Notes under the pieces: model-generated
The model's database searches: none
The model's input: only the letters and a program-made list of their open reading frames with translations
What the model was told of the DNA's origin: nothing
Translations under genes and position numbers: made by a program
Shown: piece by piece, positions 19,503 to 56,509 of the stretch
How the letters are laid out: each line of letters begins with the position of its first letter
Numbering within the stretch: position 1 is the first letter of the stretch
IMG/VR virus record: IMGVR_UViG_3300017743_000009
Location: 1 to 59,973 of that record
Strand: one strand, 5' to 3'
Length of the DNA stretch: 59,973 bases
DNA from: a virus

Positions 19503-20342
19503 CTACGCTTCTTCTATTTCTTCACAAAGGTCTTCCCATATACTTCTATCTGGGACAACTGTTGATAGTGTAAATCTTCTAGTTACGGCATGAGCACAAT
19601 GCCAGCTAGCTGTTTCTTGATCTGCAAGTATAGGGGTTGTATATGTTTGTTCACGTTTGCCAAACTTACCTGCAATCTTCTCATCATACTTATTTGGATC
19701 TGAAATTGTATCATAAAAAATACCAGCTCTAGCTACCCAACCTGGCTTATCTTTATATTCAATTATCTCTCCATCATCGTAAGTATAGAAAGAACCACTA
19801 CCTTCTTTATTATAATGTAATAAAATATTATTACCAGGAGCATTACCATTATGATGCCAAGGTATATGTCCCCCAGGCTCATAGAACGCGCATAATGCCA
19901 TAGCTGAACCACCTAACCATTTATGTGATATGTCATACACCATGTCTCTAAACCAATCGTAATCTTTAGTTCGCTCCCAAACTTTTTTACCTGTTACAAA
20001 TGGTTCCAAATTAGGGAAGCCTTTTGTTTCATGATGTAACGGGCCTTTTTCTTTCATAAGATCTTTTTGATAATTTAAATATTCAATTCCAATTGGACTC
20101 ATTTGGCCTGACTTTAATTCATCGTTCATGTTCCAGGGTAGAATATCCCAATGAGGAGCTGCTACATAAGCTTCTTCTTTATTATCTTTTTCTCTTTCCT
20201 TTGGACTTTTAGATTTATATTCTAGATCAATTAATGAGCTCATTAATTCTCGATCATCAAATAATTCATCAACCTTTAACGCTAGATTATCTAATTTTTT
20301 TATAAGTTCTGGATTTCGTATTGTTAGGTCTTGCATCTTCAT
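19503..20342 (-). CDS. Putative 2OG-Fe(II) oxygenase/aspartyl hydroxylase-like protein
   Basis: A 279-residue soluble protein. The central region has CAFYEPGGHIPWHHNGN (151-167) and the C-terminal region WHCAHAVTRRFTLSTVV (247-263). An early His-x-acid pair, a late His and an Arg after it are the fingerprint of double-stranded beta-helix oxygenases; His163/His164, His251 and Arg255 would fill these places, but the usual Asp is Asn165, which is atypical. N-terminal residues 1-60 are charged and probably helical. It overlaps the glycosyltransferase by four bases and follows the tetrad-repeat fibre genes, suggesting it modifies fibre protein or glycan. Activity is inferred from motifs only. Confidence 0.55.
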   Translation of the reverse strand: MKMQDLTIRNPELIKKLDNLALKVDELFDDRELMSSLIDLEYKSKSPKEREKDNKEEAYVAAPHWDILPWNMNDELKSGQMSPIGIEYLNYQKDLMKEKGPLHHETKGFPNLEPFVTGKKVWERTKDYDWFRDMVYDISHKWLGGSAMALCAFYEPGGHIPWHHNGNAPGNNILLHYNKEGSGSFYTYDDGEIIEYKDKPGWVARAGIFYDTISDPNKYDEKIAGKFGKREQTYTTPILADQETASWHCAHAVTRRFTLSTVVPDRSIWEDLCEEIEEA

Positions 20343-21181
20343 ACTGGATTACCTCCTGGACCTGTACCAGGCTGATATTCATCTTCTAAATATAATCCAG
20401 GTGTTTGATTTAATAATCCTCTATTAATAGGATGATGTTTAATAATAGGAGTTAATCCTCCATGAGATCTATTACCCATATAATGATTCCAATTCCATCT
20501 TAACATCTCATGCTTATTATTATTTTCTACTTCTTGTATTTTAAGATCTGGAATTAATTTTTGATGTATCCACCACCAGGTAAATTGATCCCATGCTCGA
20601 TTCTTAAAATAAATTTCAGGATGGTTTTTCCAAAAATCAGGATTAGCATTTATATTTAAATATTCTGTCCACCATAGGTTCATAGCTTTTTGAGCGTTAG
20701 GACGCTTATCATTATTCCACCATAAAAAGAACCCGCCATGATATCTTAAATGTTTATCTACAGCATTATCTCTTATATCTGCTTCACCTTCTTTAGTATA
20801 AATTGCTGTACTTGCTCCAGTATTAGGATCGATAACAGTAAAGGCGCAATCATGATTATCATCTAATAAATCAAAAACTCTTTCTATTTCCTCATCTACT
20901 ATTTCCATATCAGCATCTAAATAGCAAGTCTTTTCAAATGGTGTATGCTGAAGAGCCCATAATTTAGATCTTACACTTATTGGAAAATCTTCACTAACCA
21001 CTTTAACAACTGAATCTAATCTTTCAAAATCTTCTACCCATTCTGGATGGCATGCAACCATAACTTTAGGATCATTATAATAATCTTCTAAACTTTCTAT
21101 ACATTGAATAGCACTATTTTTATAGTGGTTATGCATAGAAGCAACTAATAAAAAACCTTCTTTATGTTTCTGTTCTGTCAT
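20339..21181 (-). CDS. Glycosyltransferase, GT-A type
   Basis: A 280-residue protein from the ATG at 21181 (an in-frame GTG lies two codons earlier). Features: LLVASMHNHYKNSAIQCIESL at the N-terminus, RSKLWALQHTPFEKTCYLDADMEIV with the metal/nucleotide-sugar DxD motif at Asp89-Ala-Asp91, GGFFLWW and a Trp-rich WDQFTWWWIHQ segment in the acceptor half. These are typical of GT-A nucleotide-diphospho-sugar transferases. It overlaps its neighbours on both sides, so it is part of one translational unit with the 138-aa protein and the oxygenase. Its place among fibre genes suggests protein or receptor-mimicking glycan transfer onto virion fibres. Confidence 0.8.
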   Translation of the reverse strand: MTEQKHKEGFLLVASMHNHYKNSAIQCIESLEDYYNDPKVMVACHPEWVEDFERLDSVVKVVSEDFPISVRSKLWALQHTPFEKTCYLDADMEIVDEEIERVFDLLDDNHDCAFTVIDPNTGASTAIYTKEGEADIRDNAVDKHLRYHGGFFLWWNNDKRPNAQKAMNLWWTEYLNINANPDFWKNHPEIYFKNRAWDQFTWWWIHQKLIPDLKIQEVENNNKHEMLRWNWNHYMGNRSHGGLTPIIKHHPINRGLLNQTPGLYLEDEYQPGTGPGGNPV

Positions 21182-21578
21182 AATCACTCACTACTGCTGC
21201 ACCATAGACGTATAATTCTGCAAATGTTTTAGCTTTACGAATACGTCTTTTTAACTTTTTATTAGTTGTCTTTTTAATTTCATCGATTTCCATAACTGAT
21301 AATTTTTCAATAAATAGAGCTTCCTGCATTTGTCGTTCTTCATTCTCTTTATGGAATTGTTCTTCAGCTAATTTCTGTTCTCTAAATTGCTTTACGTCCT
21401 CTTCAGACCTTGCAGTAATTTCTTCAATAGAAAATTCTGCTAAAACAGCATCGTAGTTTTCTTTATCTTTGGGATCTATGATAAGCTCTCTACTACCTGT
21501 TTCAGTAATTTCAAGAGCCCTAATTCGTTTTTTTTCTTCTGGGATTTCCCAGAGAGCATTTTTAAATCGGTTTGCCAT
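21162..21578 (-). CDS. Charged helical protein, unknown function
   Basis: A 138-residue protein rich in Glu, Lys and Arg. It starts MANRFKNALWEIPEEKKRIRALEITETGSRE; residues about 60-125 look helical (EDVKQFREQKLAEEQFHKEN, IKKTTNKKLKRRIRKAKTF). No family recognised. It lies between the tetrad-repeat fibre and the glycosyltransferase, overlapping the latter, and is preceded by a CATAAATA late-type site. It could be a fibre chaperone or a partner of the modifying enzymes; both are guesses. Confidence 0.7.
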   Translation of the reverse strand: MANRFKNALWEIPEEKKRIRALEITETGSRELIIDPKDKENYDAVLAEFSIEEITARSEEDVKQFREQKLAEEQFHKENEERQMQEALFIEKLSVMEIDEIKKTTNKKLKRRIRKAKTFAELYVYGAAVVSDYDRTET

Positions 21579-21624: not shown

Positions 21625-21632
21625 TATTTATG
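21625..21632 (-). promoter_or_regulatory. Late-type promoter (CATAAATA) overlapping fibre stop codon
   Basis: The minus strand reads GTTGCATAAATAG: the TAA stop of the 1505-aa fibre lies inside the NATAAATA motif. It is 46 bases before the ATG at 21578 and so would drive the 138-aa protein, glycosyltransferase and oxygenase. The intervening gap contains an ATTATTATTATT run and no strong hairpin. Confidence 0.6.
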
Positions 21633-24600
21633 CAACTCTTAGCCATAATTTTATAGTAGAGTTATTTGAGGCTGTACCTTGAATAGTATCACCTGCAAAT
21701 TGACCCGTAAACTGAGATGAATAAGTAGATGTAAATTGCGGACCTGTTATTAATCTCGCGAATTGGTCTCCATTATATGATGGCCCTGGAGTCGTTCTAG
21801 CATACCCTACACTATAATTATCTCCTACTACTAACCTTGCAAATTGTCCTCTTGTATATTGAGGGCCAGGTGTAGTTCTAGAATACTGAGAGGTGTATTG
21901 AGGTCCTACTACAAGTCTAGCAAACTGGCCTCTAGTGTATTGTGGTCCAGGTGTAGTTCTAGCATAATTAACAGTGTAGTTTGGTCCAGTCACCAGTCTT
22001 GCATATTGACCGTCTGAGTAATTAGGGCCAGGTGTTGTTCTAGAGTAGCCAACACTATAATTAGGACCCGGTGTTATTCTAGCATATGCTCCATCTGAAT
22101 AATTAGGTCCAGGTGTTGTTCTGGCATAGTTAACTGTATATTGTGGTCCTGGTCTAGCTCTTGTATACTGACCGTCACTGTATGCTGGCCCTGGCGTCGA
22201 CCTAGCATAGTTAACTGTATATTGAGGACCTACTACAAGTCTTGCATATTGTGCAGAATAAATTCTTGTAAACTGTCCTGTATACTGCGCAGTAAACTGT
22301 CTTGTAAAAGATCTACCATAATTTACTGAATATATTCTAGCATATTGTCCTGTATATTGAGCTGTATATTGTCTATTAAATGCCCTTCCATAATTGGCGG
22401 AATATATTCTTGTATATTGTCCTGTATATTGGGCAGTAAATTGTCTGTTAAAGGATCTAGAATATGAAGCTGAAAAAATCCTAGTAAATTGCCTACTATA
22501 TTGTCCGGAATATATTCTAGCAAATGATCTTCCGTATCCTGCTGAGAATATTCTAGTAAATTGTCTGGCATATTGGCCAGCATAACTTCTTGCAAATGCT
22601 CTTCCATAATTAGCGGAATATATTCTGGCATATTGACCTGTGTATTGAGCTGTATATTGTCTATTGAATGATCTACCATAACCAGCTGAAAAAATCCTTG
22701 TAAATTGTCTAGCGTATTGGCCGTTATAAACTCTACCGAACGCTCTTCCGTACCCTGCTGAGTATATTCTTGTAAATTGTCTAGCGTACTGGCCGTTATA
22801 AACTCTACCAAAAGCCCTTCCGTATCCTGCTGAGTATATTCTTGTAAATTGTCTTGCATATTGACCATAATAGACCCTACCAAAAGACCTACCATACCCG
22901 GCTGAAAAGATTCTAGTAAACTGTCTTGCATATTGACCATAGTATACTCTACCAAAAGCTCTTCCGTATCCAGCTGAAAAGATTCTAGTAAATTGTCTTG
23001 CGTATTGACCATAGTATACTCTACCATAGTTAACTGCATAGTTAGGTCCTGGTCTTGATCTACCATAGTTACCATAATAGATTCTACCATAGTTAACAGT
23101 ATAGCCTACAGCATAGTTAGGACCTGGTCTAGATCTTCCATAGTTACCATAATAGATTCTACCAAACGATCTATTGTATTGGACACCATATGCTGGGCCC
23201 GGTCTTGCTCTATTATATGAACCATAGTACACTCTTCCAAACGATCTATTGTATTGGACACCATATGCTGGTCCAGGTCTAGCTCTATTATATGAACCAT
23301 AGTATACTCTTCCATAGTTTACAGTATAACTTGAAGAATAGTTTGGTCCTGGGCGTGATCTAGTAAAATTTCCTGAGTAAATATTAGCACCACCGGCCTG
23401 TCTATAGTAAGATGGTAATCTAGTAAACCCTTTATACTGACCACCTATAGGAGGGAAGCCACCAGCAGATGCGTAAATATTAGCAGAACGCGTGTAGATA
23501 GTGCCTCTATAATATTGACTGCCGCCGTCTTGGTCCGGGGGTGGAAAGAATGTTGGAGGTCCAAAATAAGGTTCTACTGGAGCACCATAACCGGTTCCAT
23601 ATCCACCTTCAAGCCTATCAGAATTATAATTAAAGTCAAATGCTAATCGTGAAAAATTAGCTCCAGCATAACTACCATAGTAAACTCTTCCAAAAGATCT
23701 CGAATAACTTACACCGTAAGCTGGACCTGGTCTTGATCTACCATAGTTACCATAATATACTCTACCATAGTTAACAGTGTATCCTACGGCATAGTTAGGG
23801 CCTGGTCTAGATCTTCCATAGTTACCATAATAGATTCTACCATAGTTAACAGTATACCCTACAGCATAGTTAGGGCCTGGTCTTGCTCTATTATATGAAC
23901 CGTAGTATATTCTTCCAAACGATCTGCTATACTGTACACCGTAAGCAGGTCCTGGTCTAGCTCTATTATATGAGCCAGTGTATACTCTACCATAATTGAC
24001 TGCGTACGCAGGTCCTGGTCTTGATCTTGTATATTGTCCATCACTATAATTAGGACCTGGTGTTATTCTGGCATAGTTAACTGTGTAATTAGGACCCGGT
24101 CTTGATCTTGTATACGACCCGTCCGAATAATTAGGCCCCGGAGTTGTTCTAGCGTAGTTAACTGTGTAGTTGGGACCAGGTCTTGATCTTGTATATTGTC
24201 CATCACTATAATTAGGTCCCGGAGTTGTTCTAGCATAGTTAACAGTATAATTAGGTCCTGGTCTTGATCTTGTGTATTGCCCATCACTGTAATTAGGACC
24301 AGGTGTAGTTCTAGCGTAGTTTACAGTATAATTAGGACCCGGTCTTGATCTTGTGTATGACCCATCTGAGTAATTAGGTCCAGGTGTAGTTCTTGCATAG
24401 TTAACTGTGTAGTTAGGCCCTGTAATTAATCTTGCAAATTGACCTCTAGTATACTGAGGACCTGGTGTTATTCTGGCATAGTTAACTGTATAGTTAGGAC
24501 CAGGTCTAGCTCTTGTATATGACCCGTCTGAATAATTAGGACCTGGAGTTGATCTTGCATAGTTAACAGTGTAATTAGGTCCAGGTGTTATTCTAGCATA

Positions 24601-26145
24601 GTTACCATCTGAGTAAGCTGGTCCTGGAGTTGCTCTTGAATATCCTGCAGAGTAATTAGGACCGACTACTAATCTGGCAAATTGACCTCTTGTGTATTGA
24701 GGTCCTGGAGTTGTTCTTGCATAGTTAACTGTATAGTTAGGTCCTGTAATTAATCTAGCAAATTGTCCTCTTGTGTATTGAGGTCCTGGAGTTATTCTTG
24801 CATAGTTGGCAGTATATTGGCTACCTACTACTAGTCTTGCAAATTGACCTCTTGTGTATTGAGGTCCTGGAGTAGTTCTAGAATAGCCTGATGTATATTG
24901 TCTAGTAAATTGTCTACCATATCCTGCAGAGAAAATTCTTGTAAATTGTCTAGCGTATTGGCCAGCATAACTTCTTGCAAACTGTCTTCCATATCCTGCT
25001 GAGAATATTCTAGTAAACTGTCTAGAATAATCGCCAGTAAATATTCTTGCAAATGCTCTTGTATATTGTGCAGAGAATATTCTAGTAAACTGTCTTGCGT
25101 AGTCACCGGTAAATTGTCTATTAAAAGCTCTTCCATAAGCTGCAGAGTATATTCTAGTAAACTGGCCTGTGTATTGAGAAGTATATTGCCTTGTAAACTG
25201 TCTACCGTATTGAGCAGAATATATCCTGGTGAACTGTCCAGTATATTGAGATGTAAATTGTCTATTAAAAGACCTAGTATATTGAGCTGTAAATGACCTA
25301 GCAAACTGTCTTGTATATTGAGCTGAGAATTGTCTAGTAAACTGTCTACTAAAGTTTCCAGTAAACTGATTAGAGTATTGTTGAGAAGTATTATCAGCTA
25401 CCTGATCGATTAGACTATCACTAACTTGTAACCATGTACCAGTTCCTGGAGCACTTACTTGTAGTTTATAAGTACCAACACCAGTAGCTACAATTCTATT
25501 TCTTAATCTTTGAGTTAATGATTTAATTTCAGCAGTAGACATCTGCTTAATAAGAGATCCATCTAACTTAACAGTAGGTATATTAGTATAACTTATTCCA
25601 TCATCTGTTTTACGATATAAATTATATGTTTGATTTGTTCCTGCATTATGAGTAATTGTATCAGTAACGGTCGCTTTGGTAGCCCAAGTCCCTCCAGAAG
25701 GTGCTGCGGTACCAAAATAATACTGCCCCGTAGCATAATTGGAAGTATTAGCTATTTTATCTAAGGCATATTTAATAATTGAATTATTTAAATCTGTATC
25801 TGTTTGTTCTTTTACTGAAGAACTAGAATAGCCTAACGGTCTTACTAAACCTGATTCAGATATAGCAGTAACATTTTGATAGAAGGTAGTTGTTACAGTA
25901 TTAGTAGATCCGGTTGCAGGATGAGTACCAATAGATTCTGTTCTTCTTGTATCAACGAAAGATCCTATAGAAGTTCCTGTAGTAATATTAAGATCACCTG
26001 TTACTACATTACTAGAGGCAAAATCTTCAAGTACAATATTAGTGACATAATCCATTTCTGCATTAGTCATTTCCTGCAGACCTGAGAAGTTAGTTGAGTT
26101 TACACTCGAACCACTACTAACTTTTATTTTTAATGGATTACTCAA
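21628..26145 (-). CDS. Giant tetrad-repeat fibre protein (Tyr/Phe-Arg rich)
   Basis: A 1505-residue protein. Residues 1-250 are a non-repetitive N-terminal domain (MSNPLKIKVSSGSSVN, then YYFGTAAPSGGTW and LTQRLRNRIVATGVGTYKLQ). The rest is an extreme repeat. Aromatic residues recur every four positions in units such as YARQFTRIFSAGYGRSF (small residue next, often Arg third), alternating with longer units YTVNYARTTPGPNYSDGQ and YTRSRPGPN; about 35 PGP motifs are present. A unique island of about 90 residues (residues ~830-920) carries EPYFGPPTFFPPPDQDGG and KGFTRLPSYYR. The C-terminus is TIKLWLRVA. The downstream paralogue at 26185-28653 has the same N-domain, island and end. It is surely virion surface material, probably a fibre. 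Confidence 0.85.
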   Translation of the reverse strand: MSNPLKIKVSSGSSVNSTNFSGLQEMTNAEMDYVTNIVLEDFASSNVVTGDLNITTGTSIGSFVDTRRTESIGTHPATGSTNTVTTTFYQNVTAISESGLVRPLGYSSSSVKEQTDTDLNNSIIKYALDKIANTSNYATGQYYFGTAAPSGGTWATKATVTDTITHNAGTNQTYNLYRKTDDGISYTNIPTVKLDGSLIKQMSTAEIKSLTQRLRNRIVATGVGTYKLQVSAPGTGTWLQVSDSLIDQVADNTSQQYSNQFTGNFSRQFTRQFSAQYTRQFARSFTAQYTRSFNRQFTSQYTGQFTRIYSAQYGRQFTRQYTSQYTGQFTRIYSAAYGRAFNRQFTGDYARQFTRIFSAQYTRAFARIFTGDYSRQFTRIFSAGYGRQFARSYAGQYARQFTRIFSAGYGRQFTRQYTSGYSRTTPGPQYTRGQFARLVVGSQYTANYARITPGPQYTRGQFARLITGPNYTVNYARTTPGPQYTRGQFARLVVGPNYSAGYSRATPGPAYSDGNYARITPGPNYTVNYARSTPGPNYSDGSYTRARPGPNYTVNYARITPGPQYTRGQFARLITGPNYTVNYARTTPGPNYSDGSYTRSRPGPNYTVNYARTTPGPNYSDGQYTRSRPGPNYTVNYARTTPGPNYSDGQYTRSRPGPNYTVNYARTTPGPNYSDGSYTRSRPGPNYTVNYARITPGPNYSDGQYTRSRPGPAYAVNYGRVYTGSYNRARPGPAYGVQYSRSFGRIYYGSYNRARPGPNYAVGYTVNYGRIYYGNYGRSRPGPNYAVGYTVNYGRVYYGNYGRSRPGPAYGVSYSRSFGRVYYGSYAGANFSRLAFDFNYNSDRLEGGYGTGYGAPVEPYFGPPTFFPPPDQDGGSQYYRGTIYTRSANIYASAGGFPPIGGQYKGFTRLPSYYRQAGGANIYSGNFTRSRPGPNYSSSYTVNYGRVYYGSYNRARPGPAYGVQYNRSFGRVYYGSYNRARPGPAYGVQYNRSFGRIYYGNYGRSRPGPNYAVGYTVNYGRIYYGNYGRSRPGPNYAVNYGRVYYGQYARQFTRIFSAGYGRAFGRVYYGQYARQFTRIFSAGYGRSFGRVYYGQYARQFTRIYSAGYGRAFGRVYNGQYARQFTRIYSAGYGRAFGRVYNGQYARQFTRIFSAGYGRSFNRQYTAQYTGQYARIYSANYGRAFARSYAGQYARQFTRIFSAGYGRSFARIYSGQYSRQFTRIFSASYSRSFNRQFTAQYTGQYTRIYSANYGRAFNRQYTAQYTGQYARIYSVNYGRSFTRQFTAQYTGQFTRIYSAQYARLVVGPQYTVNYARSTPGPAYSDGQYTRARPGPQYTVNYARTTPGPNYSDGAYARITPGPNYSVGYSRTTPGPNYSDGQYARLVTGPNYTVNYARTTPGPQYTRGQFARLVVGPQYTSQYSRTTPGPQYTRGQFARLVVGDNYSVGYARTTPGPSYNGDQFARLITGPQFTSTYSSQFTGQFAGDTIQGTASNNSTIKLWLRVA
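21690..25390 (-). repeat. 12-base-period tetrapeptide repeats and 81-base PGP repeats in fibre gene
   Basis: The coding DNA repeats in units of four codons (12 bases) over most of this span. A higher-order unit of 27 codons (81 bases; YTVN, YARTTPGPN, YSDGQ, YTRSRPGPN) fills about 24000-24600. Neighbouring copies are often almost identical at the DNA level, unlike the diverged repeats of the fibre at 6868-11187, which suggests active homogenisation or recent expansion. Because the period is a multiple of three, other frames stay open as well and give long spurious reading frames. Confidence 0.85.
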
Positions 26146-26189: not shown

Positions 26190-28653
26190 CAACTCTTAAC
26201 CATAAGGTCTTAGTAGTAGTTGTAAAACTTCCTGTTACTGTGGCACCAGCATATTGTCTTTCTCTTGACCCTGCGTAATTACTAGTATACTGACCATCAG
26301 TATAGTTGGGCCCTACAATCTCACTAGTATATTGCCCTGTGAACTGTCCACGAGTAAACTGACCTGTATATTGTGGACCGGTTACAATTCTTGTGAATTG
26401 TATAGCGTATTGAGTGCCTCTTGAAAATGCTACTGAGTAATCAGCAGAAAAATTAGCAGTAAATTGTCCCGTGTATTGGGGTCCTGGTGTTGATCTAGTA
26501 TATTGACCATCACTGTAATTTGGACCAGGTGTAGTTCTAGCATATTGCGGACCATTATATTGAGGTCCAGGAGTAGATCTTGAATACTGTGCTCTTATAA
26601 AGTTACCTTGATATTGTGGTCCATCAAACTGTCTTACATAAGTACCATAGCTTCTTGATCCATCATATGTAGATGTATATTGCGGACCATTATATTGAGG
26701 TCCAGGTGTTGATCTATCATAATTAGTTGTATACGAAGCACGAGTATATTGCGGTCCTGGAGTTGCTCTTGCATAAGATGGCCCAGGTGTGGTTCTTGCA
26801 TATTGACCGTCTGAGTAATTAGGTCCAGGTGTTGTTCTATCATAATTAGCAGTATATTGACCATAAAATGTAACTGAATAACCAGGTCCAAATGAATAAC
26901 CTGTGTATGCTGCTCTAATATACTGACGAGAATAAACAACTTGATATGGTGGACTGCCTACATCATTTGATCTAAAATATTGTTGAAGCCTTGAAAAACC
27001 TTTGTATATACCTGATACAGGAGGTAACCCTCCAAGATCACCTGAATATACATTAGAGCTACGGGTGTAAACAAACCCTCTATAATATTGTGTACCATCT
27101 CTATCGGCTGGTGGAAATTGTGTAGGAGGTCCAAAATAGGGCTCTTCTCGCGCATAAGGTTGACCATACCCATTAGTCTCTCCATGGTCAGCATTGTAAC
27201 CAAAAGCTAAACCTGATCTAGCAAATTGAGCTTCATAACCACGATTAAAACTTCCTGTAAATGATCTATCATAAGTTACAGTTATACCTACCCTTGTAAA
27301 TTGCCTACCATACTGAGCAGAATAAATTCTGGTAAACTGTCTTGCATAATCAGCTGAGTAAATTCTTGCATAGTTAGCTGAGTAAATTCTAGTATATTGA
27401 GATCTTATAAATGATCTTCCATATGTTCCAGCATATACTCTTTGGAATTGTCTGGTAAATTGATTGCCTCTGCTATATGTTCCAGCATATGTTTTCGTAT
27501 AAGCTGAGCCATCAAACTGTCTAGTAAATTGGCTATTGTATGGTCTACCGTATTGTGCTGAAAATGTTCTTGCAAACTGCCTTTGATATTGCGCAGTAAA
27601 AACTCTATTAAACTGTCTTGCGTATTGTGCTGAATATATTCTAGTATATTGACCACGAGAAAATTGTGATCCTATAACAGCCCTTGAAAATGATCTTAAA
27701 AATTCTCTAGTAAAATTTCTTGCATACTGTCCAGTATATATTCTAGTAAATTGATTAGCAAATTGTCTGTTAAATTGACCTCTAGTGTATTGAGCTGAAA
27801 ACTGTCTACCAAATTGTCTTGAAAATTGTCTAGAGTAGTTAGCTGAATAAGTACCTGTATATTGTATACTTGAAATTACAGGATTTCTATCAGTAGCAGT
27901 TCCTCTAGCTACCCATGTACCTGTTCCTGGAGCAGATGTTTGAAATTTATAGGTACCAATACCAGTTGCAATAATTCTATTTCTTAGTCTTGAGGTTAAA
28001 TTTTCTAATTCATTATCAGTTTGAACTTTAAGAGTACCATTTACTTGCTTAAGTAACTTTATATCTGATGGTGAGTTATCATAAGAAGTCTTTCTCCATA
28101 GCTTGTAAGTGGTCTTAGAGCTATCATCATTAGCATTATTAGTTATCTCATCATAGAAATTATCTTGTGCTACCCATGTACCAGCAATAGAAGGAGCTGA
28201 TTCACTTATGTAATAAGTCCCTGTACCTGCTGCAGTAGAATTTGCTTTTGCTATATCTGCTAAAGCAAGATCCATTACTACATTTAATTCAGCATCTGAT
28301 ACTACTCTAATATGCCCAGGGTTACCCGTACCGTCATGAGTAATTAAAGGGTGTATTGAACTCTCTGAAGCCGTTGAATTGTTTTGTTTAAATGTATAAG
28401 TGGTTGTTGAAGTAGATCCAGTATAAGGATGTGTTCCAGTTTCGGAAGTAGCAAAATTATCCTCAAATACTCCTACAGAAGTACCTAGTGAATCTATATT
28501 TAGATCACCAGTATTGTCTCCAGCTCCAGACTCAGAAGCGTATAAAGTTAATAATTTTTTTGATAGAAAATCAAGCTCTGCATTAGTAGTTACTTGAACG
28601 CCATTATTGTAAATACCGTTAGCGTGGGTTCGCATTTTGAGAGGATTTGGCAT
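26185..28653 (-). CDS. Second tetrad-repeat fibre protein, paralogue of the 1505-aa fibre
   Basis: An 822-residue protein. N-terminal residues 1-250 (MPNPLKMRTHANGIYNN, YYISESAPSIAGTW, LTSRLRNRIIATGIGTYKFQ) match the first 250 of the neighbouring gene. Residues about 265-460 are aromatic/Arg tetrads (FSRQFGRQFSAQYTRG). Residues about 475-565 repeat the unique island (EPYFGPPTQFPPADRDG, IYKGFSRLQQYFR). The rest mixes TPGP units and tetrads, ending KTLWLRVA. Both proteins probably arose by tandem duplication followed by different repeat expansion. It is likely a fibre or adhesin; three-dimensional fold unknown. Confidence 0.84.
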   Translation of the reverse strand: MPNPLKMRTHANGIYNNGVQVTTNAELDFLSKKLLTLYASESGAGDNTGDLNIDSLGTSVGVFEDNFATSETGTHPYTGSTSTTTYTFKQNNSTASESSIHPLITHDGTGNPGHIRVVSDAELNVVMDLALADIAKANSTAAGTGTYYISESAPSIAGTWVAQDNFYDEITNNANDDSSKTTYKLWRKTSYDNSPSDIKLLKQVNGTLKVQTDNELENLTSRLRNRIIATGIGTYKFQTSAPGTGTWVARGTATDRNPVISSIQYTGTYSANYSRQFSRQFGRQFSAQYTRGQFNRQFANQFTRIYTGQYARNFTREFLRSFSRAVIGSQFSRGQYTRIYSAQYARQFNRVFTAQYQRQFARTFSAQYGRPYNSQFTRQFDGSAYTKTYAGTYSRGNQFTRQFQRVYAGTYGRSFIRSQYTRIYSANYARIYSADYARQFTRIYSAQYGRQFTRVGITVTYDRSFTGSFNRGYEAQFARSGLAFGYNADHGETNGYGQPYAREEPYFGPPTQFPPADRDGTQYYRGFVYTRSSNVYSGDLGGLPPVSGIYKGFSRLQQYFRSNDVGSPPYQVVYSRQYIRAAYTGYSFGPGYSVTFYGQYTANYDRTTPGPNYSDGQYARTTPGPSYARATPGPQYTRASYTTNYDRSTPGPQYNGPQYTSTYDGSRSYGTYVRQFDGPQYQGNFIRAQYSRSTPGPQYNGPQYARTTPGPNYSDGQYTRSTPGPQYTGQFTANFSADYSVAFSRGTQYAIQFTRIVTGPQYTGQFTRGQFTGQYTSEIVGPNYTDGQYTSNYAGSRERQYAGATVTGSFTTTTKTLWLRVA
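26230..27860 (-). repeat. Tetrapeptide-coding repeats in the 822-aa fibre gene
   Basis: Direct repeats with a 12-base step, interrupted by the unique island at about 26945-27220. Copies are shorter and more irregular than in the adjacent 1505-aa gene. Sequence shared between the two genes offers large targets for homologous recombination. Confidence 0.75.
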
Positions 28654-28669
28654 AATCTAACCCTCCCCT

Positions 28670-31633
28670 CTACGCCGGCCAAGCAACCGATCCGTTAGCG
28701 TAATAAACCCTAAATGCATTGCCTCCTTCATCTTTAAGATCGCTATGAACACTTAAATCGCCTACTACGTTAGCTGATGAACTCATTGTTGCAGCTCCAG
28801 TAACACCTAAAGTACTTGATAGAGTTGCTGCGCCTCCTACTGCTAATGTTCCGTCTGCATCGATGCCAGAAGAAGTAATTGCTGTATTTACCGAACTAGT
28901 TCCTACAGTAATTTTTGTTGTTGATAAGTTGACGTTAGCGCCAATGTTTAATGTACTTGATATGTTTGCAATACCTGTAACAGAAGCACCACTTGTTGCA
29001 GTTAATAGTCCTGAGAAGTTACCTGTATTAGCTGTAATTACAAATCGTTTAGACGTTGTACCAAGTGTTTGGCCTACAGTATTAGATTTAGGAATAATTT
29101 GTGAACCAACTGCTATTGAAACTATATTAGCTGTATTAGCAAATAATTCGTATCGTTTTAAATTTGTTCCTAAAGGTACTCCATTAGCGCCTGGTATTAA
29201 TCCAACGGTTGTATTACCAACCGGTGCATATACAAATAAATTTTCAGTGCCTGAACCATTACCAATAGTAGTAGTACCATCTAAGGTTGACTCAGCTGAT
29301 ACTGATAAAGTTGTCATTGATGCTACATTCAATGATAAAGCTTGATTAGAAGATAAAGATGTTGAACCTTGAACTTCTAAATCACCAACAATAGTTACAT
29401 CATCATTAAATGTAGTATTTGGTGTAGCTGTTATTCCAGTATCTGTAATATATAATTCGCCTGATACTAAATTAGCTGTAGCACCAGTATGAACTATTGC
29501 TGACTTTAAAGTACCAAAAGTCATTGAACCTGTAATATCTGCATTACCACCTACGGTAATTTTACCACCTGATTCCATTGTGGTTGTAGCATTTACAAAA
29601 CCTGTTACTGTTGTGTTTCCTGCTGCTAAAGTTTTACTGAATATAGAATTGTCTGCTACTGTTATTGAATCTTGGAACGTAGCATTACTTTGAACTTCTA
29701 ATCTATTATTAAGATCTAGAATACCAGTTACATTTAATCCACCGCTTACATTTAATGTACTTGATACGTTAGCTATACCAGTAACTGTTAAACCTTTCTT
29801 AAGAGTTGATAATCCATTTGCAGTAAATGTATTACTTGTAGCTAAAGCACCTGTAAATGTTCCAGTATTAGATCCTGCTACTGCTCCAGTTACTCCTAAC
29901 TGACCAGAAAGAGATCCTCCTACTGCTTGTATATTTCCATCGGCATTTATATTACCGCTATCATCTATAACTACATTAGTAGATGCGTCACCAACAGTTA
30001 TTTGCCCGGCGTTTAATTCTACATTACCTACAACTACATTTGAGGATACTATAGTATGTCCTGCTATATCTGTATTACTTCCACTTAAAGTAGAGACTCC
30101 ACCAACAGTTAAAGTACCACCTGTTGATATAGTTGTTGATGTTAATTTTGAATTTGATGCATTGTTACCTACTGCTATGCTATTATTAGATAACTTAACT
30201 TTAGTATTTGCTGAACCAACATGAATAGCAACTGAAGCATTTGCTGTACCTGTTACTATTAAATTACTTTTAGCTCTTAATAATCCACCTACATTTGCTG
30301 CTGTAGTAAATACTGCATTTCCTGCGACAGTTAAAGTGTTACTAAATGATACAGAATTAGTAACTGCTAAGGTATTACTTAGAGTAGTTGCCCCAGTAAC
30401 ACCTACTGTATTACTGAAAGTGGCTGTATTTGTTACCGCTAAAGTATTACTTAAAGTAGCTGCACCTGTAACTGTGATAGTATTACTAAATGTAGCTGTA
30501 TTAGTTACAGCAATAGTATTACTAAATGTTCCTGCTCCTACTACATCAAGTGTATTACTAAAATCGCCTGTACCTGTAACTAGTAATGTTTTGCTTACGT
30601 TTATATCTTCTGCATTAACATCCCATCTTGCATTTGTAGCACCAAGAACTTTAGAGTTGGATGTAGGTATTATATTAGTATCAACTTTACCATTAATAGA
30701 AATAGTATCTGCAGATGCATTACCTAAGTCTACATCAGAAGCAAACGTTGCATTCCCTGTTACTGATAGTGTGTTTGATACACTTACTGTATTACTATTA
30801 AGGTTCCATCTAGCGTCTGTTAGACCAAGGGACAATGCATTAGATACAGGATTTAAACCAGTATCTGCTTCAGAGTTAAACGAAACAGTATCAGAGTTTG
30901 CACTACCTAATATTACATTAGCATTAAATAAAGATTCATCTGAATTAACTGTTAATAAGTTTCCAGATAAAGTAAGATTTGCTTCTGTGCCGTCTCCATT
31001 TAAATCTAAGACAGTTGTAGATCCATCAGCTTTAACTGTTATGTCATTAGCGGTTAAAGTAATATCGTTATAATCAGCTGTTAGAGCAGTACCGTCCATA
31101 TCAACGGTTGCTGAATTAATATCAAAAGTTGTTCCAGTTACATGAGTAGCAGTAGAGTTAAGAGAAGTATTAGAAGACGTACTGTTAATATGTACATCAC
31201 CTTTAATTTGAAGTAAGCTGTTATTTACAAATACGTTTGTTGTTTGTATATCAGTATAAGCACCTTTTATTCTTACCGTATTAGTAGTAGACTGAGAAGC
31301 AACATTAATTGTATCGCCTAGTATATTAGTATTAGATGTTATAGAAAGAGTATTAGATGCTTGAACATTACCACCTCTAAGACCATCTAAAGCAGCTACA
31401 GTATTAGCTTGAATAATACCACCAGTTGAACTAACCCAGGCAGATGTATCTTGATTATAAACGTTAGAAGTAATAACAACGTTACCAGAAGTAGAACCAC
31501 CAACTGTATTCTGTTGGGCAGTAACCACAACTTCTGACATATCAAATACTATTTGGTTGGTTCTATCTACCCATGCTCCAAAAGTATCTGTCTGAGTTGC
31601 TACATTAGCGGATTTGTATTTACGTTCAGCCAT
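28670..31633 (-). CDS. Tail fibre protein with 12-residue beta repeats
   Basis: A 987-residue protein. The N-terminus has TDTFGAWVDRTNQIVFDMS (residues about 15-33), a start shared by many marine T4-like fibres. Most of the protein is Asn/Thr/Ser/Val-rich beta repeats. Around residues 370-450 they form a regular 12-residue series (VTNTATFSNTIA, VTGAATLSNTLA), as in beta-solenoid shafts. The C-terminus FRVYYANGSVAWPA recalls the last residues of the giant fibre at 6868 (KVYDSGGSVVWG) and may be a shared trimer tip. It overlaps the upstream small coiled-coil gene by eight bases. Confidence 0.82.
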   Translation of the reverse strand: MAERKYKSANVATQTDTFGAWVDRTNQIVFDMSEVVVTAQQNTVGGSTSGNVVITSNVYNQDTSAWVSSTGGIIQANTVAALDGLRGGNVQASNTLSITSNTNILGDTINVASQSTTNTVRIKGAYTDIQTTNVFVNNSLLQIKGDVHINSTSSNTSLNSTATHVTGTTFDINSATVDMDGTALTADYNDITLTANDITVKADGSTTVLDLNGDGTEANLTLSGNLLTVNSDESLFNANVILGSANSDTVSFNSEADTGLNPVSNALSLGLTDARWNLNSNTVSVSNTLSVTGNATFASDVDLGNASADTISINGKVDTNIIPTSNSKVLGATNARWDVNAEDINVSKTLLVTGTGDFSNTLDVVGAGTFSNTIAVTNTATFSNTITVTGAATLSNTLAVTNTATFSNTVGVTGATTLSNTLAVTNSVSFSNTLTVAGNAVFTTAANVGGLLRAKSNLIVTGTANASVAIHVGSANTKVKLSNNSIAVGNNASNSKLTSTTISTGGTLTVGGVSTLSGSNTDIAGHTIVSSNVVVGNVELNAGQITVGDASTNVVIDDSGNINADGNIQAVGGSLSGQLGVTGAVAGSNTGTFTGALATSNTFTANGLSTLKKGLTVTGIANVSSTLNVSGGLNVTGILDLNNRLEVQSNATFQDSITVADNSIFSKTLAAGNTTVTGFVNATTTMESGGKITVGGNADITGSMTFGTLKSAIVHTGATANLVSGELYITDTGITATPNTTFNDDVTIVGDLEVQGSTSLSSNQALSLNVASMTTLSVSAESTLDGTTTIGNGSGTENLFVYAPVGNTTVGLIPGANGVPLGTNLKRYELFANTANIVSIAVGSQIIPKSNTVGQTLGTTSKRFVITANTGNFSGLLTATSGASVTGIANISSTLNIGANVNLSTTKITVGTSSVNTAITSSGIDADGTLAVGGAATLSSTLGVTGAATMSSSANVVGDLSVHSDLKDEGGNAFRVYYANGSVAWPA

Positions 31634-56432: not shown

Positions 56433-56509
56433 TGGCGCACCCACCAGGAGTCGAACCTGGAACCTACAGCTTAGAAGGCTGTTGCTCTATCCAATTGAGC
56501 TATGGGCGC
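56433..56509 (-). tRNA. tRNA-Arg (anticodon UCU), CCA encoded
   Basis: The minus strand folds as a complete 77-base tRNA: acceptor GCGCCCA/TGGGTGC with one G-T pair, D stem GCTC/GAGC, anticodon stem ACAGC/GCTGT with loop CTTCTAA (anticodon TCT), five-base variable loop AGGTT, T arm CCAGG-TTCGACT-CCTGG, discriminator G and encoded CCA. It reads AGA, the main Arg codon of the tetrad-repeat fibres. It lies one base from the end of the tape measure gene on the other strand and 50 bases after gp32, behind a terminator-like hairpin. Confidence 0.96.

Follow-up and report, generated by a model that had tools for sequence, protein, structure and literature searches.

The analyzed stretch, hereafter the window, comprises the 59,973 bases of the virus record IMGVR_UViG_3300017743_000009 and carries T4-like tail genes, encoding baseplate wedge, hub, tail tube, and sheath proteins, as well as head closure and terminase genes. 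A single open frame on the minus strand (21628–26145) encodes a protein of 1,505 residues with a TTG start (denoted as P1). Its paralog P2 (26185–28653, minus strand, 822 residues) adjoins P1 upstream in the same direction. The two genes are flanked by a gene with a weak tail-fiber match (28670–31633) and by genes for a glycosyltransferase (GT)-like and an oxygenase-like protein. The original prediction had read P1 as a fiber, and a phage tail fiber is indeed the most likely assignment, given the T4-like baseplate and tail cluster around the gene. The TTG start (26143–26145) is common to P1 and three orthologs (L004:3446, L005:8665, and L006:8513) and is mostly preceded by a purine-rich stretch, while P2 starts with ATG; the TTG start perhaps lowers the synthesis of the giant P1 protein. 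The sole tRNA gene in the window, tRNA-Arg(TCT) (56433–56509, minus strand), reads AGA, a codon used for 138 of 156 Arg residues in P1 and 52 of 65 in P2 and dominant in other genes as well.

The repeat array of P1 is built on regularly spaced aromatic residues. Tyr or Phe recurs at an exact spacing of four over 42 consecutive positions (residues 258–422) and again over 67 (residues 1037–1301), and the lag-4 Tyr/Phe autocorrelation exceeds that of shuffled sequences with z = 12.5 for residues 250–430 and 14.6 for residues 1060–1340. The four-residue aromatic period proposed earlier is therefore real, but its extent of about 1,200 residues was overstated, as the strict tetrads cover approximately 440 residues. 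The quoted stretch YARQFTRIFSAGYGRSF is found in P1, and the count of about 35 PGP motifs proved to be exactly 35. The 27-residue PGP units described earlier are present, together with a 25-residue unit type beyond that description. Three block types can thus be distinguished, in which the strict tetrads form a 24-residue super-repeat, the PGP blocks have Tyr/Phe spacings of 4, 5, and 9 and consist of 27-residue units (13+14) with two PGP each, and the third type is a 25-residue repeat with one PGP per unit. When one aromatic residue or one PGP is counted as a rung, all three units equal six rungs. Approximately 94 central residues (~833–926) are free of repetition.

In a comparison of P1 with its relative L002, dN/dS was 0.036–0.08 in the tetrad and PGP blocks (pS 0.5–0.7), 0.15–0.20 in the mixed blocks and the central region, and 0.06 in the N-terminal head, figures that alignment within repeats could flatter. 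Identical P1 tetrads are encoded by several different DNA versions. Because of the low dN/dS and these different encodings, a DNA repeat artefact is excluded and the P1 array is a selected protein, with arms under purifying selection.

The head of P1 (residues 1–256; 25378–26145, minus strand) consists of three related modules, each containing two paired strands that follow the pattern GTYxLxxSAP.GTW ... TxLWRKT. The array sits between the two strands of the third module, and the end of the protein serves as the second strand, as seen in alignment A3 and from the motifs. This last strand (residues 1485–1505, ...TIKLWLRVA; 21631–21693, minus strand) repeats the second strand of every head module and completes the third. 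AF2 models of two relatives agree with the motif in placing the C-terminal strand against the N-terminal head. In L127, high confidence is assigned to the head and to the final 25 residues (pLDDT ~95 at the closing strand); the array, longer than that of L258, scores below 50 and is left without structure. In L258, whose closest relatives have arms equal in length to its own, two continuous strands (residues 257–297 and 308–357) surround a short turn, the arms having pLDDT values of ~58–71 and the base exceeding 95. This model suggests, with moderate confidence, a long two-stranded hairpin, whose antiparallel pairing is read from the strand limits and the closure of the head. Since the array lies inside a head strand pair and the last strand closes the head, the chain has to extend outward and then return.

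The blocks of P1, delimited by Tyr/Phe spacing, repeat units, and rung counts and all encoded on the minus strand, are arranged accordingly. From the base outward, the N-arm comprises a strict tetrad block of 42 rungs (residues 257–425; 24871–25377), a PGP block of 66 rungs, corresponding to 11 six-rung units (residues ~426–722; 23980–24870), and mixed 25-residue units (residues ~723–832; 23650–23979). The array's dominant break follows, a non-repetitive putative tip (residues ~833–926; 23368–23649). The C-arm, likewise read from the base, comprises a PGP block of 41 rungs (residues ~1305–1484; 21694–22233), opposite the N-arm tetrad block under mirror facing, a strict tetrad block of 67 rungs (residues 1037–1304; 22234–23037), opposite the N-arm PGP block, and mixed 25-residue units (residues ~927–1036; 23038–23367). 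P2 follows the same design, with a head (residues 1–262), a tetrad N-arm (~263–493), a tip (~494–592), a C-arm of tetrads and PGP units (~593–800), and a closing strand (801–822); its head type and closing strand are those of P1, and its tip is similar.

The facing blocks thus number 42/41 and 66/67 rungs in P1. The corresponding values are 42/41 and 78/79 in L002, so that each arm has gained or lost 12 rungs between the two proteins, in one event or a series of events and as one of few comparable cases, and 39/35 and 45/48 in L004. When the arms are folded onto each other as mirror images, the PGP sum per facing six-rung stretch is approximately 2, whichever arm carries the PGP. The mean squared deviation in P1, L002, and L004, which are related and hence non-independent, is 0.19–0.21 under mirror facing versus 0.64–1.24 under parallel facing, and none of 500 block shuffles was as low. 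Tetrads lie opposite PGP under mirror facing with r values of 0.71 and 0.76. In P2 and its orthologs, the arms match less exactly. The mirror PGP balance and the matched length changes constitute the strongest evidence for arm pairing and resemble compensatory change in RNA stems. A tandem duplication with a linker domain, in which unpaired halves form a single linear solenoid or string, could account for the unit types shared by the two halves and for the tetrad-then-PGP order of both in the sequence. However, the block sizes match under mirror facing only (42/41 and 66/67), the parallel fit being three times worse; in addition, the C-terminal strand goes back to the head in the AF2 models of L127 and L258, and the 12-rung change between P1 and L002 affects both arms. 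We consider such a duplication improbable.

Close relatives were detected in viral contigs by similarity search, in which the low-complexity filter likely masks the arrays, so that the results rest mostly on the heads. A large family of 97 complete proteins (82 non-redundant) emerged from a search for the tetrad DNA pattern and from queries with short members; this sample, picked by pattern or similarity, is not random among viruses. The family proteins range from 304 to 1,558 residues and mostly end in L[YW]xR[TV]A, and the last array aromatic is located 23 residues before the C-terminus in 66 of 80. When bacterial and archaeal genomes were scanned with the tetrad DNA pattern, the matches listed resembled either unrelated low-complexity proteins or microsatellites of 12 bases, many of which can be read in several frames, and were rejected. 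Among 50,697 records searched, one annotated phage, C48C1, carries a relative. This protein (L001 11989–22032) has 3,347 residues, several folded inserts, and stretches with Arg at every third aromatic position, and could represent a form that is branched or has several tips.

The central position of the tip recurs across the family, whose members are homologous, and hence non-independent, and vary widely in array length: the longest out-of-register break lies within 0.06 of the middle in 46 of 80 broken arrays (9.6 expected), and 37 of 50 proteins with a dominant break have it in a central position (6 expected), over array lengths from 44 to 1,260 residues. The dominant break is off-centre in about a quarter of such proteins and in many of the longest, and some proteins have several inserts. 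Arm lengths range from ~20 to 600 residues, with 5 residues as the commonest N-minus-C difference. The tips of the paralogs P1 (~23368–23649) and P2 (~26878–27174) are alike and differ from those of more distant orthologs, which points to intragenomic exchange or to specificities that are matched. In L004 and L005, the tips barely align with that of P1, and the heads are ~58–60% identical to the P1 head; such divergence is as expected for a candidate host-contact region.

The rung consensus of the family is Y/F – T/S/A – G – N/D/T/S. Over 4,298 family tetrads, the third residue is Gly in 65% and Arg in 16%, and Gly dominates this place in 75 of 80 proteins, Arg in the other five. Arg in the third place is a habit of the P1 subfamily. 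The cation–pi ladder put forward in the original prediction is consequently unsupported as a general principle, Arg being a local feature. Charge in the family arrays is near neutral, averaging 0.003 and −0.008 per residue. Charge complementarity between the arms was considered and found unsupported, the N-arm being the more positive one in 24 of 43 cases (p = 0.08). A disordered or loosely structured array, serving as a sticky, flexible coat or as a tether, would be in keeping with the low complexity, the low AF2 confidence in the L127 array, and the strongly basic repeats of P1 and P2. Nevertheless, the register is held over 67 tetrads, the distances to the head are fixed, and the arrays of the family are near-neutral and dominated by Gly rather than Arg. 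The flexible coat suggested earlier also leaves the equal arms, the central tip, and the matched length changes unexplained, and we regard disorder as very improbable.

The geometry of the paired arms is approached through the recurrence of tetrad types, which over 18 long runs has periods of 3 rungs (mean z 2.6) and 6 rungs (mean z 3.0). In L264, L273, and L042, tetrad types recur at 3, 7, and 10 rungs, compared with 3 and 6 elsewhere, which may reflect a different twist. These recurrences, together with the PGP at every third rung of the P1 PGP blocks, would suit a beta-helix with the same out-and-back topology and approximately three rungs per turn, formed by each arm or by both arms wound together. 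The AF2 strands of L258, however, are continuous and straight, without turns every four residues, and a recurrence every 12–13 residues would also be possible in a two-stranded ribbon with a strong twist; the 3-rung recurrence fits such a ribbon or a helical turn alike. We therefore view the beta-helix as unlikely, and the beta hairpin as the geometry supported by prediction. Single aromatic–glycine cross-strand pairs occur in the antiparallel sheets of globular proteins ('aromatic rescue of glycine'). In a hairpin, a Y-x-G-x rung would similarly allow the aromatic residue to lie opposite the glycine of the other strand; with a register uncertain by one or two residues, it may instead face another aromatic residue.

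Three conserved genes lie downstream of P1 on the minus strand. The first, directly downstream (21162–21578), encodes 138 residues and has homologs in 59 loci (alignment A6); it gave no consistent Pfam match, and its product is a possible fiber assembly factor. The second (20339–21187) encodes a GT-A-like glycosyltransferase of 282 residues, in which a DxD motif is invariant across 18 homologs. Its Pfam hits are weak and confined to single members (Nucleotid_trans at 3.3e-7, GT8, and GT2), and the PDB gave no match. The third (19503–20342) encodes an oxygenase-like protein of 279 residues, in which WHxN ... D ... H ... R is invariant in 25 homologs. It matched no family profile, and HxN replaces HxD in all 25; by residue pattern, with plausibly placed H and R, it resembles Fe(II)/2-oxoglutarate enzymes. 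Of 40 distinct loci that extend at least 3 kb beyond the head gene on its downstream side, the GT-like gene lies downstream on the same strand in 39, and the order array, GT, oxygenase-like is found in 37. The two enzyme-like proteins would probably modify the fiber.

Profile searches returned a single match for P1, to PHROG 20647 (function unknown), covering the N-arm tetrads at 1.7e-10. P2 and 16 short relatives had no PHROG match, and neither P1 nor P2 had a Pfam match. Foldseek comparison of monomer models with the PDB and BFVD gave best E values of 0.11–0.51 with probabilities below 0.1, and no match to a solved fiber fold. No description of such a protein was found in the literature covered by the search, outside of which lie most subscription journals and preprints. 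As P1 matched neither a functionally characterized family nor a known fold, the earlier suspicion that its fiber architecture is undescribed looks right; the out-and-back topology, the tip, the paralog P2, and the conserved downstream genes had no part in it.

Taken together, we favor, with somewhat better than even confidence, a model in which P1 and the shorter P2 are giant antiparallel hairpin tail fibers whose arms are zipped, most likely as a beta-ribbon. The three-module N-terminal head would anchor the fiber. The chain would run outward from the paired strands of the third module for ~575 residues, cross the ~94-residue tip, and return antiparallel for ~555 residues, with the last strand closing the head. 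The arms would zip rung by rung, each rung being an aromatic tetrad (Y/F – T/S/A – G – polar, in P1 often with R for G) or a kink formed by PGP. Geometrically, the arms would most likely make up a long, twisted beta-ribbon of two strands. Such ribbons would probably pack into a homo-oligomer, which we assume because an isolated ribbon of this length is not expected to be stable alone. At ~0.33 nm per residue, simple arithmetic gives a full extension of up to ~180 nm. The number of six-rung units would set the length of the fiber, and the tip at its far end would touch the host, presumably binding a receptor.

In T4-type long tail fibers and other trimeric phage fibers, the chains run in one direction and the tip is at the C-terminus. 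P1 resembles them in being encoded among clustered tail genes as a putative long and thin appendage, with a probable host-contact end and a candidate assembly factor, a kind of gene often nearby. In contrast, its tip lies in mid-sequence and its C-terminus returns to the base, and no sequence or fold match links it to these fibers. The SMC family (SMC, Rad50, and MukB), which has alpha-helical coiled-coil arms and ATPase heads, offers the closest topological analogy. Its head built from both termini, equal antiparallel arms, mid-sequence domain at the far end, and paired length changes have counterparts in P1. The likeness is one of analogy and not homology, as the arms of P1 are predicted to be beta and its head is modular and non-enzymatic. 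The hypothetical protein WJE88074.1 of phage C48C1 (Kyanoviridae) shares the head type, the tetrads, the closing strand, and the downstream GT-like and oxygenase-like genes; it differs in its several folded inserts and in having Arg instead of the aromatic residue at many rungs. We judge the chances evenly balanced that P1 typifies a categorically new fiber that occurs widely among uncultured marine phages and is modified by the enzymes of its own cassette. Such a fiber would be a single-chain antiparallel double strand with aromatic/glycine rungs, a head from both termini, a mid-sequence tip, and a length rule that holds rung for rung.

If the proposed architecture is correct, an out-and-back beta design would join the phage fibers, with equal rungs per arm as a simple length rule kept throughout a large family of marine viruses that appears to be undescribed. 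Its short natural members, with arms of ~20–40 residues, are suited to structure determination. Matched changes in arm length may generally reveal such topologies from sequence alone. For abundant uncultured phages, the model would provide a clear candidate for the host-contact tip and a possible fiber modification system.
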